IMG/VR virus record: IMGVR_UViG_3300042397_000912
Location: 1-22,334 of that record
DNA length: 22,334 bases
From: a virus
Strand: one strand, 5' to 3'
Positions 1 to 4,851 of the stretch are shown piece by piece (the first letter of the stretch is position 1; each line of letters opens with the position of its first letter). Made by a program: the position numbers and the translations under genes. The notes under the pieces are model-generated. The model did not search any database and had not been told where the DNA came from. It was given only the letters and a program-made list of their open reading frames with translations.

Positions 1-1814
1 GCGCCAGCGCCTAACACGTTTCTTGGATTTATTGGAAGTTTTCCACTTCTTCCGGGTGTCTTACCGCCGGGTTTGTTTCGGTCTGGGCCATCAGGTATAT
101 CAATATCTGGGCCGCCATTCATATTCCTCATAATAGCACGGGCCAAGGCCATTTGTACTATTGTCGATCCGAACAGTGCTAAAAATCCTGCACCTAATGC
201 TGCATACGTCCACGGGCTGGTAAACATTTCAGATAATATTGCTTTGAATGCTGGAGCGACTAATTCTCCTAACTTTTTAAAAGCAAAATTCAATGCGGCA
301 GCAACTCCTCCAGGACCGTTGAGTATGGCTACAAACTGTTCTAAAAATCTAGTAAGAGCAGGTATTACTTTTTGAATGTTATCAGCAACTAATTTAAACA
401 CTGGCATTAATGCCTTTAACAGTTGTTCTCGTAGGGCCATTAATTGTTTGTCAAGATTTAACATGTTTTTACTTGTGTCTTTTAATGCTTTGCCTTGAGC
501 AACTTGGGCGGCGGCCGCTTCTTGACCAAATTTGTCAAGTCCTATCATAGTGGACGCGGCTAGGCCAGTTTTGCTATTTAGATTTAACATTTGTCCAGTA
601 GTGACACCGGTTGTTTCCATCAATTTACCCATTCTTATGGACTCTTCTCTAATAACTTTATTGGCTTCTTCTTGAGATACTGTGCCTTTCCTTAATTGCA
701 TTGACAGTTTCACCAATGCAGGAGAATTCCTTGCTATGTCCATGGCCAAGTCATTGCTGGCACTAGGTACACCGTTGTTCAGCATTAAATCGGCCATAGC
801 GTCTGCATAATCTTTGCCTACCTCAGGAACCTTACTCAGTGCTGCCATGAACGATTGTGTTTCTTTTCCCATTGAGCCGAGTTGTCGATAAAATAATTTT
901 AATCGCTTATCCGACATTTGTTCAGCCAACGCTTTTTGGGCTTCTTGGCGAGTCATACCATGCACACGGGACAGCATATCTAACTGTAACAAATGTTCTT
1001 TAGTGCTTTCATTTAATTCATTCTGGTTCATGTTTTGAGCACGACCAAGACGAGTCTGCATTGCAAGATACCCTGCGGTCAAGTCAGCAGTTTCTTCCAT
1101 GCTGAATCCTAATCTTGCTAAACCTTGTTGAAATGGTCCTTGTAGACTTTTGTTAACCGCAGTAAAAATTTTAGCACCAGCAGTGGTATTTCCACCTAGT
1201 TGTGCCAGTGCTGAACTGTTTTCAGTAATGGCTTTTACAAACACTTCTAATGGCAACCCGGCACGAGCAGCCATGTCTCTCATAGTGTTAATACCACTGC
1301 CAAAATCTGCACCAACTGTACTTAATTTCCTGAACATGTCTATCTGTTCCTGCATGGCTTTGCCCACAGCACCAATAATTGGCCCAATTATTGGGATGCC
1401 GCTAAGTGCATCAGTAAAATCAGTAACTTTAGGTGTTGCAGAACTGAACGCAAAGTTAAGAGTTTTGCCTATGACATTCCCAATGCTGTTTAAGACGCCG
1501 ACTACGTCTCTAAGACCATCCATGAATTTTTTTCGTTTTTCTTTTTCTTCTTCTATGCGTTTGTTAAGTTGATCTCTGCGTTCTATTTCCTCGGCTATGG
1601 ATTTTCGATTTTTGTTATTTTGTTCAAGATTTTTTTGTTGTTCTTTAGTTGTACGTTTTAGTGCTTCTTCATATGCTCTTTGTATTTTGGCTGCTTCACT
1701 TTTATTTGAATTAGTGGCCAAAGTGGCTTGAAGCAACGCATACAGTGTTGCTTCAGTTGCGGCATTTTCTAACAAAATCGGTTGCCCGCCTAATTCACCA
1801 GTGACTTCAGCCAT
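1..1814 (-). CDS. Tail tape-measure-like protein (partial, runs off left edge)
   Basis: An uninterrupted leftward frame runs from the ATG at 1814-1812 to the window edge, at least 604 codons; the C-terminus lies outside. A strongly charged, Lys/Glu-rich stretch at about residues 40-98 looks like a coiled coil. Gly/Ile/Ala-rich segments follow (LSGIPIIGPIIGAVG near 137-151). Near residues 530-560 there is a hydrophobic, possibly membrane-inserting segment (TYAALGAGFLALFG), then a Gly/Pro/Lys-rich tail. Long helical architecture with late hydrophobic segments is typical of tape-measure proteins, which set tail length and pass through the tube at DNA ejection; T4 gp29 (590 aa) has this role. The neighbouring divergent gene is a gp26-like assembly protein with a frameshift extension, which supports the tape-measure reading. 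No T4 gp29 similarity could be confirmed by eye; another long helical virion protein is the alternative. Confidence 0.6.
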   Translation of the reverse strand, partial: MAEVTGELGGQPILLENAATEATLYALLQATLATNSNKSEAAKIQRAYEEALKRTTKEQQKNLEQNNKNRKSIAEEIERRDQLNKRIEEEKEKRKKFMDGLRDVVGVLNSIGNVIGKTLNFAFSSATPKVTDFTDALSGIPIIGPIIGAVGKAMQEQIDMFRKLSTVGADFGSGINTMRDMAARAGLPLEVFVKAITENSSALAQLGGNTTAGAKIFTAVNKSLQGPFQQGLARLGFSMEETADLTAGYLAMQTRLGRAQNMNQNELNESTKEHLLQLDMLSRVHGMTRQEAQKALAEQMSDKRLKLFYRQLGSMGKETQSFMAALSKVPEVGKDYADAMADLMLNNGVPSASNDLAMDIARNSPALVKLSMQLRKGTVSQEEANKVIREESIRMGKLMETTGVTTGQMLNLNSKTGLAASTMIGLDKFGQEAAAAQVAQGKALKDTSKNMLNLDKQLMALREQLLKALMPVFKLVADNIQKVIPALTRFLEQFVAILNGPGGVAAALNFAFKKLGELVAPAFKAILSEMFTSPWTYAALGAGFLALFGSTIVQMALARAIMRNMNGGPDIDIPDGPDRNKPGGKTPGRSGKLPINPRNVLGAG

Positions 1815-1883: not shown

Positions 1884-2741
1884 GTGGAAAATATCAGACA
1901 AAATCCTTTGCACAAGTATTTTAGACAACCTAAAATATATCTTAGATTGCCTAGTTCAGGAAATTTCTATCCTGAAGGAGCATTGGAGAAAACAGAAAAC
2001 GGAGAATACCCTGTGTACTCTATGACTGCAAAAGATGAAATTGTAATGAAAACACCTGATGCGTTAATGAACGGTCAGGCAACTGTAGATATAATCCAAA
2101 GTTGTATACCCAATATTAAAGATGCTTGGAAAGTTCCTAGCATTGATCTTGATGCTATACTGGTAGCAATACGTATTGCTACCTACGGAGAGATGTTGGA
2201 TGTCAATGCCATGATTCCAGGCTTAGACGAAGAGCGCACCTACGAAACTGATTTAAGATTAGTATTGGATAAACTGATTAATTCTACATTTGACACTGTT
2301 TGTAAAATCGATGATACGTTTGAAGTTAGAATACGTCCGTTAAACTATGCAGAGTTTACTAAAAATTCTACTCGTAGTTTAGAAGAGCAACGTATAATTC
2401 AAATTGTTAACGATGACAAGTTAGACGATGCAGACAAACTTGAAAAGTTTGCTGTGAGTTTTAGAAAATTAACAGAAATTACTATCAACATGGTGAGTTC
2501 CGGTATTATGTCTGTGATTACACCCGAAGGTACAGTAGATGATCCTGCGTTTATTCAAGAATTTGTCAACAATGCAGACAAAGATATACTAAAAAGTATC
2601 ATTGCGCACTTAGACGAGCAAAAAAAGAAATTCAACATTGAACCTTTTAAAGTACGTTCTTCTCCAGAAGAAATCGAAAAGGGTGCGGCAGCAGAATTTG
2701 AAGTACCTATTACATTGGACAGTTCAAATTTTTTCGCGTAA
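1884..2741 (+). CDS. gp26: gp26-like baseplate hub/tail assembly protein, 0-frame product (285 aa)
   Basis: Start is GTG at 1884, supported by CGGAG at 1870-1874 with 9-nt spacing; no in-frame ATG nearby has a comparable site. The N-terminal IYLRLPSSGNFYPEG (about residues 18-32) and an acidic, mixed alpha/beta body without signal peptide or membrane segment fit the T4 gp26 baseplate family as found in marine T4-like phages, where these proteins run longer than T4 gp26 (208 aa). T4 gp26 is needed for hub assembly. The gene sits beside the tape-measure-like gene and ends at a strong -1 frameshift signal joining it to the frame at 2735-2965, so it may be the short form of a G/GT-type tape-measure chaperone pair. 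Family assignment is from recognition of the N-terminal motif and position; the chaperone role is inferred. Confidence 0.6.
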   Translation: MENIRQNPLHKYFRQPKIYLRLPSSGNFYPEGALEKTENGEYPVYSMTAKDEIVMKTPDALMNGQATVDIIQSCIPNIKDAWKVPSIDLDAILVAIRIATYGEMLDVNAMIPGLDEERTYETDLRLVLDKLINSTFDTVCKIDDTFEVRIRPLNYAEFTKNSTRSLEEQRIIQIVNDDKLDDADKLEKFAVSFRKLTEITINMVSSGIMSVITPEGTVDDPAFIQEFVNNADKDILKSIIAHLDEQKKKFNIEPFKVRSSPEEIEKGAAAEFEVPITLDSSNFFA

Positions 2742-2756
2742 GGCTCCTTAGCCTTA
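2726..2756 (+). other. Programmed -1 ribosomal frameshift signal
   Basis: Read in the gp26-like frame, 2726-2732 is A_AAT_TTT and 2729-2735 is T_TTT_TTC; both are X_XXY_YYZ slippery heptamers in the correct phase. Three nt after the second (six after the first) lies a perfect stem: TAAGGCT at 2739-2745, loop CCTT, AGCCTTA at 2750-2756. The 0-frame stop TAA (2739-2741) is at the base of the stem. The -1 frame is open from here through the stop at 2963-2965. Slippage at either heptamer gives the same junction, Phe-Phe-Arg-Val-Arg. Confidence 0.8.
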
Positions 2757-2776
2757 GTCTGAATGAAGCACTAGAC

Positions 2777-2965
2777 ATGATTAAGGGGCTTGATAATCAA
2801 GTTAAAGAAATCAAAAACGAGATATTCAGGCTGTGTTGGTACATGCGCGGTAGTGTGACCATTGATGAAGGGTTTGCCTTGACATATGATGACAGAGTCA
2901 TCATCTCAGACATCATTAAAGACAATTTAGAAACTACTAAAAAAACACAGATGCCGTTCTTTTAA
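2777..2965 (+). CDS. C-terminal extension of the gp26-like protein in the -1 frame (62 aa from its first ATG)
   Basis: The frame is -1 relative to the gp26-like gene and is open upstream of its first ATG through 2735, so a shifted ribosome would append 76 residues to 284, giving 360 aa over 1884-2965. The ATG at 2777 has no convincing Shine-Dalgarno site, which argues against independent initiation. The protein has an amphipathic helix (GLDNQVKEIKNEIFRLCWYM) and a charged helix ending with MPFF. Short helical extensions of this type are the T part of G/GT tail chaperones, which bind the tape-measure protein. It could be a separate small baseplate gene, but spacing, phase and the frameshift signal favour fusion. 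The stop overlaps the convergent gene by 4 bp. Confidence 0.65.
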   Translation: MIKGLDNQVKEIKNEIFRLCWYMRGSVTIDEGFALTYDDRVIISDIIKDNLETTKKTQMPFF

Positions 2966-2970
2966 ACGGC
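2953..2970. terminator. Hairpin across two convergent stop codons
   Basis: GCCGTT (2953-2958), loop CTTTTA, AACGGC (2965-2970). It lies across the overlapping stops of the rightward extension frame and the leftward gene at 2962. On the minus strand a run of seven T follows after 7 nt (complement of 2939-2945), so it may help terminate the leftward transcript. The gap before the T run makes it an imperfect intrinsic terminator. Confidence 0.35.
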
Positions 2971-3900
2971 CACTGCTACTCGTCTACGGCCTCGTCGCGG
3001 CGCAGAAACTTTAACGCTGGATTGAGGAGCAGGTGCAGCCGCTGGTTTTGGATTAGCCATTTGATTCTGTGCATTAGCCGCTGCCGCTTTCTGTTTTTCA
3101 GCCCTTATCTGTGCAGGTGTTTGTGCAACAGGTGTTGATGGCGCAGGATTGGCTTTCATTTGTGCCTGTGCCGCATTTGCAGCCTGTGCTTGTTTAGTTG
3201 CACGAATTTGTGCAGGAGTCATATTGCTGGTATTAACAGGTGCAGTAGTTGTTGCGGCAGTTTTAGAGGCCGCGGCAGGATTTTGCAATGCTGTTTGCGC
3301 AGCCAAAACAATCTTCTTAAGATCTTTCTTATTCATCTGCGGAATAACTTGTAACAATGCAGGAATATTAAATGGCTGATTTGACGGATTTGTAGGTGTT
3401 TGTGTATTAGGTGCTTGTGCGCCAGGAGTTGACTGTTGTGCTTGATTAGGCTGAGTTGACTGTGGTGCAGTCTGTGTCGCAGTATTACCACCAGCACCTG
3501 CTGTGGAGGCTACAGCGCCTCCAGCACCACCAGAACCTTTAATATATTCTTGTGCAGTTTTATTAAGAATAGCAAACACTGAATCTTTGTCAGCACTGCC
3601 AGTGAGGTTAGGCGGTACATTTTGTGTAGGAATGCCGTTCTTCAACATAAAGTCTTTGAGATCACCGAGTGTTGCTTCGGCTTCAGGACGACCAGCAGTT
3701 CTCAAATATCTTTGATATTCTTTATAATAACGATTAGCAAATTGTCCAACATCTGCTTTACTGTCTAATTGCCCAGCCCATGTCTTTAATCCAGCGGCAC
3801 TTAATGCGGCTGCACCAATACGCTTCGCGGCTTGTCCTAGCATACCAGCAGGCCCTTCAGCAATCTGTTTATTTTCAGAAAGAATTTCTATCGCTTTCAT
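2962..3900 (-). CDS. Ala/Pro/Gln-rich protein with possible capsid-targeting N-terminus
   Basis: 312 aa, ATG at 3900-3898 with AAGGAT (complement of 3909-3914) 8 nt upstream. No family is recognised with certainty. The N-terminus MKAIEILSENKQIAEGPAG contains LSE (7-9) and IAE (13-15), both matching the (I/L)-x-E cleavage consensus of the T4 gp21 prohead protease; T4 internal proteins and Alt begin with comparable short targeting peptides. A compact region at about 48-120 (ANRYYKEYQRYLRTAGR) is followed by a low-complexity Gly/Ala/Thr/Gln/Pro linker, a helical segment (about 179-206), two 33-residue repeats starting TPAQIRA, and a basic end PRRGRRR (301-307). A late gene for a packaged, DNA-associated head protein is the inference. 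A tail or baseplate accessory protein is possible. Confidence 0.6.
   Translation of the reverse strand: MKAIEILSENKQIAEGPAGMLGQAAKRIGAAALSAAGLKTWAGQLDSKADVGQFANRYYKEYQRYLRTAGRPEAEATLGDLKDFMLKNGIPTQNVPPNLTGSADKDSVFAILNKTAQEYIKGSGGAGGAVASTAGAGGNTATQTAPQSTQPNQAQQSTPGAQAPNTQTPTNPSNQPFNIPALLQVIPQMNKKDLKKIVLAAQTALQNPAAASKTAATTTAPVNTSNMTPAQIRATKQAQAANAAQAQMKANPAPSTPVAQTPAQIRAEKQKAAAANAQNQMANPKPAAAPAPQSSVKVSAPRRGRRRVAVAV
3049..3219 (-). repeat. Two tandem 33-residue repeats within the low-complexity protein
   Basis: Residues 228-260 and 261-284 of the protein at 2962-3900 both open TPAQIRA-x-KQ and continue Ala/Asn/Gln-rich to Gln-Met-(Lys)-Ala-Asn-Pro; the second copy is cut short. The unit is about 99 bp. 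The DNA copies have diverged at many positions, so the duplication is not recent. Confidence 0.6.
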
Positions 3901-3934: not shown

Positions 3935-4416
3935 AATATAGATGAACTACGTTCATCTGTTCTTCGCTTGCGCTCGAACTATTCGACTTCTTTTATTAAT
4001 TATAGGAATTTATTAAGTGCGAAGCACATTAAATATTATCTAGATTGTGTAGTCACACTTCGCCCTGGCGGGCAAAGTTATTTTGAACATTATCTGAGTT
4101 GAGCAGTTCACTTAGCGTTGGCACTATAGTATTTCTACTTGCTTAGGCGGTCATCCGGTACCTAATCGTGCTGTCTTATATGACGGCGGTATACAAACAT
4201 ACGCTAACATGCGTGTATACGTGGGGCGTATTTCCCCTCTTTTAGCCTTTTATAATTGTCTTAAACAGCAAAACCGGTTGTATGTAGGCATATCCGATCT
4301 ACGTCCTGTTAAGGATAGTTGCTGAGTACTGTTGCGGCACAGATTTCCGTCCCTGAGACCCGAGGTCCAGTTGTTCTTAGACACTTGATATAAGCCAGTG
4401 CAAGCCAAAAACCGCT
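3935..4416. ncRNA. Gene-free region with dense inverted repeats; possible structured RNA
   Basis: No frame of note and no tRNA were found over about 515 bp between the leftward genes, a long gap for this genome. It holds several hairpins: AGATGAAC-TAC-GTTCATCT (3940-3958); GTGC-GAA-GCAC (4017-4027); GCCC-TGGC-GGGC (4062-4073); TTAGGCGG-TCAT-CCG with a 3-nt bulge then CCTAA (4143-4165); GTATAC and ACGC pairing with GCGT and GTATAC (4189-4220); GGGG-7 nt-CCCC then TCTTTT (4223-4243); TCCT-GTTA-AGGA (4304-4315); CTG-a-GACC-cga-GGTC-CAG (4353-4370). The part from about 4140 to 4370 looks more GC-rich than its neighbours, which in AT-rich phage DNA often marks RNA genes. Strand and boundaries are unresolved; no known RNA family was recognised. 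Confidence 0.4.
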
Positions 4417-4851
4417 TTATTTTGCCTTAGATTGTTCTAACAGCCGTTGCCTAAGTATGTTTGAACCGCCTACTCTAACGTTGATAATACCGTTATAGTA
4501 GTCATCGCTTTCCAGTACTCTGCGTTCAAACTGTTCTCTTGCCTCCAGATATGACATTTCTGCCTTGGACATGCAAAGATATAGTATTTCTCTTGTGAAA
4601 TTTTCCGGACCTAGTGCGTGGACATCTGCATTGAGCCTATCAGATGAACCATAGTAGTCGCGCCAATCGCTTTCTACTACACTTCTTCTTTTAAGTTTTT
4701 TGCCTTTGAGTGGTGGTTTGGTGCGTTTAAACTGTGCTAGTTTTTTGCCTATGTATTTTTGTCCGGTTTGTAGATTCGTAATAAGATACACAAAGCCAAT
4801 ATAGCCTTCTGGAATCTCTTCTACAGGTTGATTTTGATACGTCCACAGCAC
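4417..4851 (-). CDS. GIY-YIG nuclease-family protein
   Basis: 144 aa. The GIY-YIG fold signature is visible: GFVYLI (19-24) for the GIY strand and KYIGKK (32-37) for the YIG strand, followed by basic residues including R43, the block WRDYYGSS (63-70), and a helix with acidic residues (EAREQFE, 103-109) then YYNGIINVRVGG (118-129), in the places expected for the metal-binding Glu and conserved Asn. T4-like phages carry GIY-YIG enzymes of the Seg homing type; related free-standing proteins are common in marine myophages. No DNA-binding repeat domain follows, so it is a minimal nuclease core. It starts 4 nt after the preceding gene's stop, so it belongs to the gp55-gp47-gp46 operon. Homing, repair or DNA-processing roles are all possible. 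The structured gene-free region lies just downstream. Confidence 0.7.
   Translation of the reverse strand: MLWTYQNQPVEEIPEGYIGFVYLITNLQTGQKYIGKKLAQFKRTKPPLKGKKLKRRSVVESDWRDYYGSSDRLNADVHALGPENFTREILYLCMSKAEMSYLEAREQFERRVLESDDYYNGIINVRVGGSNILRQRLLEQSKAK

Follow-up and report, generated by a model that had tools for sequence, protein, structure and literature searches.

The window analysed here is the whole stretch of 22,334 nucleotides covering positions 1 to 22,334 of the IMG/VR record IMGVR_UViG_3300042397_000912. This 22-kb fragment of an uncultured virus carries T4-like genes, encoding a gp46/47-like nuclease, a late sigma factor and gp53-, gp25- and gp6-like baseplate proteins. The features of the locus under study are as follows:

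3 to 1814, minus strand: neighbouring gene in divergent orientation, tape-measure-like, truncated at the edge of the window; assigned by homology to a full-length relative (L007)
1884 to 2741, plus strand: gp26-like gene, short form (TAC-N), 285 aa, GTG start, C-terminal end ...NFFA followed by the stop
2726 to 2732, plus strand: A_AAT_TTT, second in-phase heptamer, read from the sequence; non-conserved
2729 to 2735, plus strand: T_TTT_TTC, slippery heptamer; conserved slip site by invariance in relatives and codon statistics
2735 to 2965, plus strand: 76-aa extension in the −1 frame, RVRLL...MPFF, making up the TAC-C part of the long form; relatives on at least 440 viral contigs
2739 to 2756, plus strand: 7-bp hairpin of the preliminary description, competing with the long stem; non-conserved, 83% of cells paired
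2741 to 2751, plus strand: conserved downstream stem, 5' arm, starting 5–6 nt after the heptamer
2781 to 2791, plus strand: conserved downstream stem, 3' arm, pairing with about 2741–2751

The gp26-like gene belongs to the T4_baseplate family PF12322, which it matches at 34.6 bits, where the curated cut-off is 24.5. Its match among the PHROGs is phrog_150, baseplate hub (E = 2.6e-12), and the protein has a fold match in BFVD named 'Baseplate hub assembly protein, T4-like' with a TM of 0.85. A fold search of the solved structures in the PDB gave no similarity for the gp26-like part or for the −1 part. As had been proposed in the preliminary description, the gene adjoins a tape-measure-like gene: the full-length relative of this neighbour (L007, 1448–3931, minus strand, 827 aa), to which the copy in the window is 60% identical, matches phrog_167, tail length tape measure protein (E = 2.9e-12). 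A chaperone of the G/GT type is likewise found beside the tape measure gene; however, the tape-measure gene is divergent here and does not lie downstream, which is a counterpoint to the chaperone reading.

The 3' end of the gp26-like gene reads TCA AAT TTT TTC GCG TAA in the 0-frame, with the stop at 2739–2741. The two overlapping heptamers are both in phase, and the −1 frame stays open between a point 11 codons 5' of the slip and the stop at 2963–2965; both points are read directly in the sequence, the phase and the open frame 3' of the slip as first described. A slip on either heptamer would give the identical predicted junction, N-F-F-R-V-R. The −1 extension is predicted by AlphaFold2 to be all-helical (pLDDT 90.7), and direct sequence matching of the −1 product of the window against Pfam, PHROGs and the PDB gave no significant match.

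Viral contigs were scanned with the 76-aa −1 product, and nearly all matches among the relatives listed begin at the first residue 3' of the slip. An alignment of the locus in related phages had been proposed at the outset as a check on the frameshift. TTTTTTC stands at the junction in the same phase in all 70 distinct viral loci encoding relatives of the −1 product, where the 0-frame reaches its stop at most a few codons past the slip and the neighbouring codons and flanking residues vary. The heptamer is also invariant in the 38 dissimilar representatives, defined as loci less than 85% identical. From the use of Phe codons, TTT TTC would be expected in all 38 with a probability of about 10^-25.6, and a T-ending codon before TTT TTC in all 38 with one of about 10^-9; both figures overstate the case, as lineages were treated as independent. 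The other of the two heptamers claimed, A_AAT_TTT, did not hold up in the same way: its AAT is replaced by ACT, GAT, GCT, AGT or TAT before TTT TTC in at least 9 of the 38 representatives, and A_AAT_TTT was rejected as the main slip site because the preceding codon varies among them. The conservation of T_TTT_TTC extends to the cyanophages, where the gp26 junction is of the identical FF|R type and has TTTTTTC in 81 of 81 loci, and to the jumbo phages Phosso, Atu_ph07, PA5oct and 121Q, which have TTTTTTC and the same junction, with the −1 geometry of the window. The junction of XacN1 has the variant T_TTT_TTT and a longer 0-frame tail.

The RNA downstream of the slip site was compared with codon-preserving recodings. 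Among the relatives of the window, the 56 nt after the slip are more stable than synonymous recodings, with a mean z of −2.5 and p < 0.05 in 60% of the sequences, and values at four control positions were near 0. The cyanophages show the same excess stability after the slip (mean z −2.6, controls about 0). Some relatives of the window (L091, L087, L096 and L014) had no significant downstream structure in the codon-preserving test, which counts against the proposed reading. The preliminary description had placed a perfect 7-bp stem with a 4-nt loop after the slip. Such a hairpin is present, with arms at 2739–2745 and 2750–2756, a spacing of 3 nt and an MFE of −8.5 kcal/mol compared with −17 kcal/mol for the long stem. 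It was rejected as the stimulator, since it breaks in relatives and shows no compensatory (double) change. The long stem, of 10–11 bp, has 95% of its cells paired in the clade of the window, where 10 pairs are unbroken in 11 of 11 distinct sequences and 3 pairs show double compensatory changes. It thus provides the conserved pairing about 5–9 nt after the heptamer that was looked for in a stimulatory element. The stimulator structure now differs from the one first proposed, and it is testable.

In other clades, the same 5' arm is combined with a nearer 3' arm, and the resulting hairpin has 12 bp and a loop of 8 nt. The 5' arm, AGGATCTT, is paired with the near 3' arm in L045, L057, L059, L070 and L081 and with the far arm in the clade of the window and in L018/L029. 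The stimulator appears to have been rewired around a fixed slip site across clades.

Access to the −1 frame may be considered without a frameshift if ribosomes translate the downstream frame as a small gene in its own right, through coupling or by re-initiating once they have passed the 0-frame stop. This reading draws on the 0-frame stop near the junction, on the annotation of the frame in GenBank as an ORF of its own in Phosso, 121Q and S-PM2, and on 4 of the 38 representatives in which ATG is the second −1 codon and coupling is possible. These four do not account for the rest, however: no start codon of the −1 frame lies upstream of the slip in any of the 38 representatives, and the first downstream start among them is variable or absent and lacks a Shine-Dalgarno motif. 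In the window, the earliest candidate start is the ATG at 2777, codon 15, and yet the residues before codon 15 are conserved; no Shine-Dalgarno motif was found before this ATG, which agrees with the initial claim that the downstream frame has no good ribosome site. Coupling would also leave the invariant TTTTTTC and its codon bias unexplained. Re-initiation was rejected because no start or Shine-Dalgarno motif is conserved, and we regard a separate gene as very improbable.

Transcriptional slippage would fuse the frames by inserting a base on the T6 run, and there is a homopolymer run at the junction on which it could act. Six T are few for a polymerase to slip on. The length of the run is fixed at exactly six T, with a C next to them, in the pattern of an in-phase heptamer, and the downstream RNA structure is under selection; both observations argue against this mechanism, the probability of which we consider slighter still. 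A chance placement of a common heptamer beside an unrelated overlapping frame would agree with the 13 occurrences of TTTTTTC in the window (12.3 expected), which make the heptamer alone unremarkable, and is refuted by the in-phase conservation over 70 distinct loci in several phage groups, so that its probability is practically nil; the case exceeds chance because TTTTTTC is conserved, not because the heptamer occurs.

The gene at 1884 is thus very probably a T4-like tail assembly chaperone gene, which would encode a short form and a −1 frameshifted long form by means of T_TTT_TTC with an RNA stem, genes 26 and 51 of T4 being the duplicated equivalents. The junction, its conservation, the constraint on the RNA, the family membership and the tape-measure neighbour are all seen at the level of sequence. 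The comparative evidence supports the original proposal that a gp26-family gene beside a tape measure gene would produce a G/GT-like pair by a −1 frameshift.

From this evidence we infer that the shift occurs, with some efficiency, and that the gp26-like gene has a chaperone function. Most ribosomes would stop at 2741 and yield the 285-aa short form. Some would slip back by one base on T_TTT_TTC (2729–2735), helped by the RNA stem starting 5–6 nt downstream, and would yield a long form of 360 aa that ends in the helical part of 76 aa. If the pair works like lambda gpG/gpGT, the short form may coat the tape measure protein, and tail tube subunits may be recruited by the C-terminal part of the long form. 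The lambda pair resembles the window in being a short and a long chaperone made by a −1 frameshift and associated with the tape measure gene; it differs in gene arrangement and in the slippery sequence. In T4, duplication would have given each of these two forms a gene of its own, 26 for the short form and 51 for the long one.

The number of PF12322 copies is one in S-PM2, Phosso, PA5oct, 121Q and XacN1 and two in T4, namely genes 26 and 51. Both gp26 and gp51 of T4 belong to PF12322, the family of the gp26-like gene of the window, and gp51 has an extra C-terminal part where the −1 extension sits. T4 differs in that genes 26 and 51 are separate and without a frameshift, and gene 25 directly follows gene 26. 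In profile alignments, the cyanophage −1 product matched the C-terminus of T4 gp51 with a probability of 96% and P = 2e-9. The −1 product of the window's clade gave a weak, collinear match to the same C-terminus (P from 0.05 to 0.001 by alignment); the weakness of the profile match of this clade to T4 gp26/gp51 is ascribed to the shallow alignments. Since both T4 proteins belong to PF12322 and the C-terminus of gp51 shares homology with the −1 product of the cyanophages, gp26 and gp51 of T4 seem to correspond to the short and the long tail-assembly chaperones, respectively. The suggestion that the gp26 family is the T4-like equivalent of the G/GT chaperones gains support from the same pair and the same homology. 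The results favour T4 gp26 and gp51 as a duplicated short/long pair, which helps to make sense of two T4 hub assembly genes that have long been puzzling. A wider scenario, in which T_TTT_TTC is fixed across the gp26 family (cyanophages, jumbo phages and this lineage), the stimulator has been rebuilt repeatedly with a near or far 3' arm, and the T4 genes 26 and 51 are a derived duplication replacing the frameshift, has in our estimate an even chance of being correct. Genes 51, 26 and 25 are in tandem on one strand in L130 and L132 (a Pseudotevenvirus and a relative), whereas 51 and 26 are divergent in T4. The 2022 abstract of Vladimirov and colleagues reportedly names genes 26 and 51.

Tail chaperones made by frameshift are classical (lambda G/GT), and a review adds 'except T4' (PMC5009743). 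According to passages in PMC12846349 and PMC10885494, the T4-like tail assembly chaperone genes were identified by Vladimirov, Gautam & Davidson (2022, Virology 566:9-15). A passage of PMC12846349 gives poly-T sequences as known −1 signals in the TAC-N genes of T4-like phages, and a passage of PMC10885494 describes some T4-like phages with a short gene and a long fusion gene instead. Because the idea of gp26/gp51-type short and long chaperones, together with the poly-T slip sites of T4-like phages, is already credited to Vladimirov et al. (2022), the principle is already known, and the window is a well-supported new case from an environmental lineage, with the stimulator corrected. As far as they are described in those passages, the T4-like TAC-N/TAC-NC genes resemble the window in the gp26-family short form, the poly-T slip near the 3' end and the long form made by a −1 shift; the downstream stem varies between lineages.

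The frameshift strategy for tail chaperones would be kept in a large, mostly uncultured T4-like group, in which the second half either lacks an annotation or is labelled as a hypothetical gene of its own. In S-PM2, gp26 and the 58-aa 'gp51' resemble the window in TTTTTTC, the FF|R junction, the −1 phase and the stem after the slip, and a large ORF in the tape-measure position adjoins gp26; the C-terminal part differs, being weakly similar to that of the window by sequence. In this locus (L223 1972–2864, equal to S-PM2 150471–151363), 'gp51' is annotated as a separate gene but has the look of a −1 extension belonging to gp26. No gp26 is listed in the S-PM2 annotation over 20–134 kb; the gene was located at 150 kb by means of PF12322. 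A tblastn search with the S-PM2 −1 product also matched the annotated gp51 of Aeromonas phages, and separate gp26 and 'gp51' labels recur in many cyanophage records. The gp26-like gene of the jumbo phages Phosso, PA5oct and 121Q comes after a large gene in divergent orientation, as in the window; the C parts of the jumbo phages differ, being 21–30% identical to that of the window. In PA5oct, the −1 extension of this gene (L114 4840–5058) is unannotated.

Elsewhere in the window, positions 4263–4406 on the minus strand match the Rfam Polynucleobacter-1 RNA (RF01718) with 98.6 bits, the gathering threshold being 37. The match lies in the non-coding gap between an ORF at 2962–3900 and a GIY-YIG-like ORF at 4417–4851. 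The best PHROG for 4420–4851 (minus strand) is phrog_447, labelled NAD synthetase; three homing endonuclease families match as well, and the NAD synthetase label of phrog_447 may be a mis-annotation.
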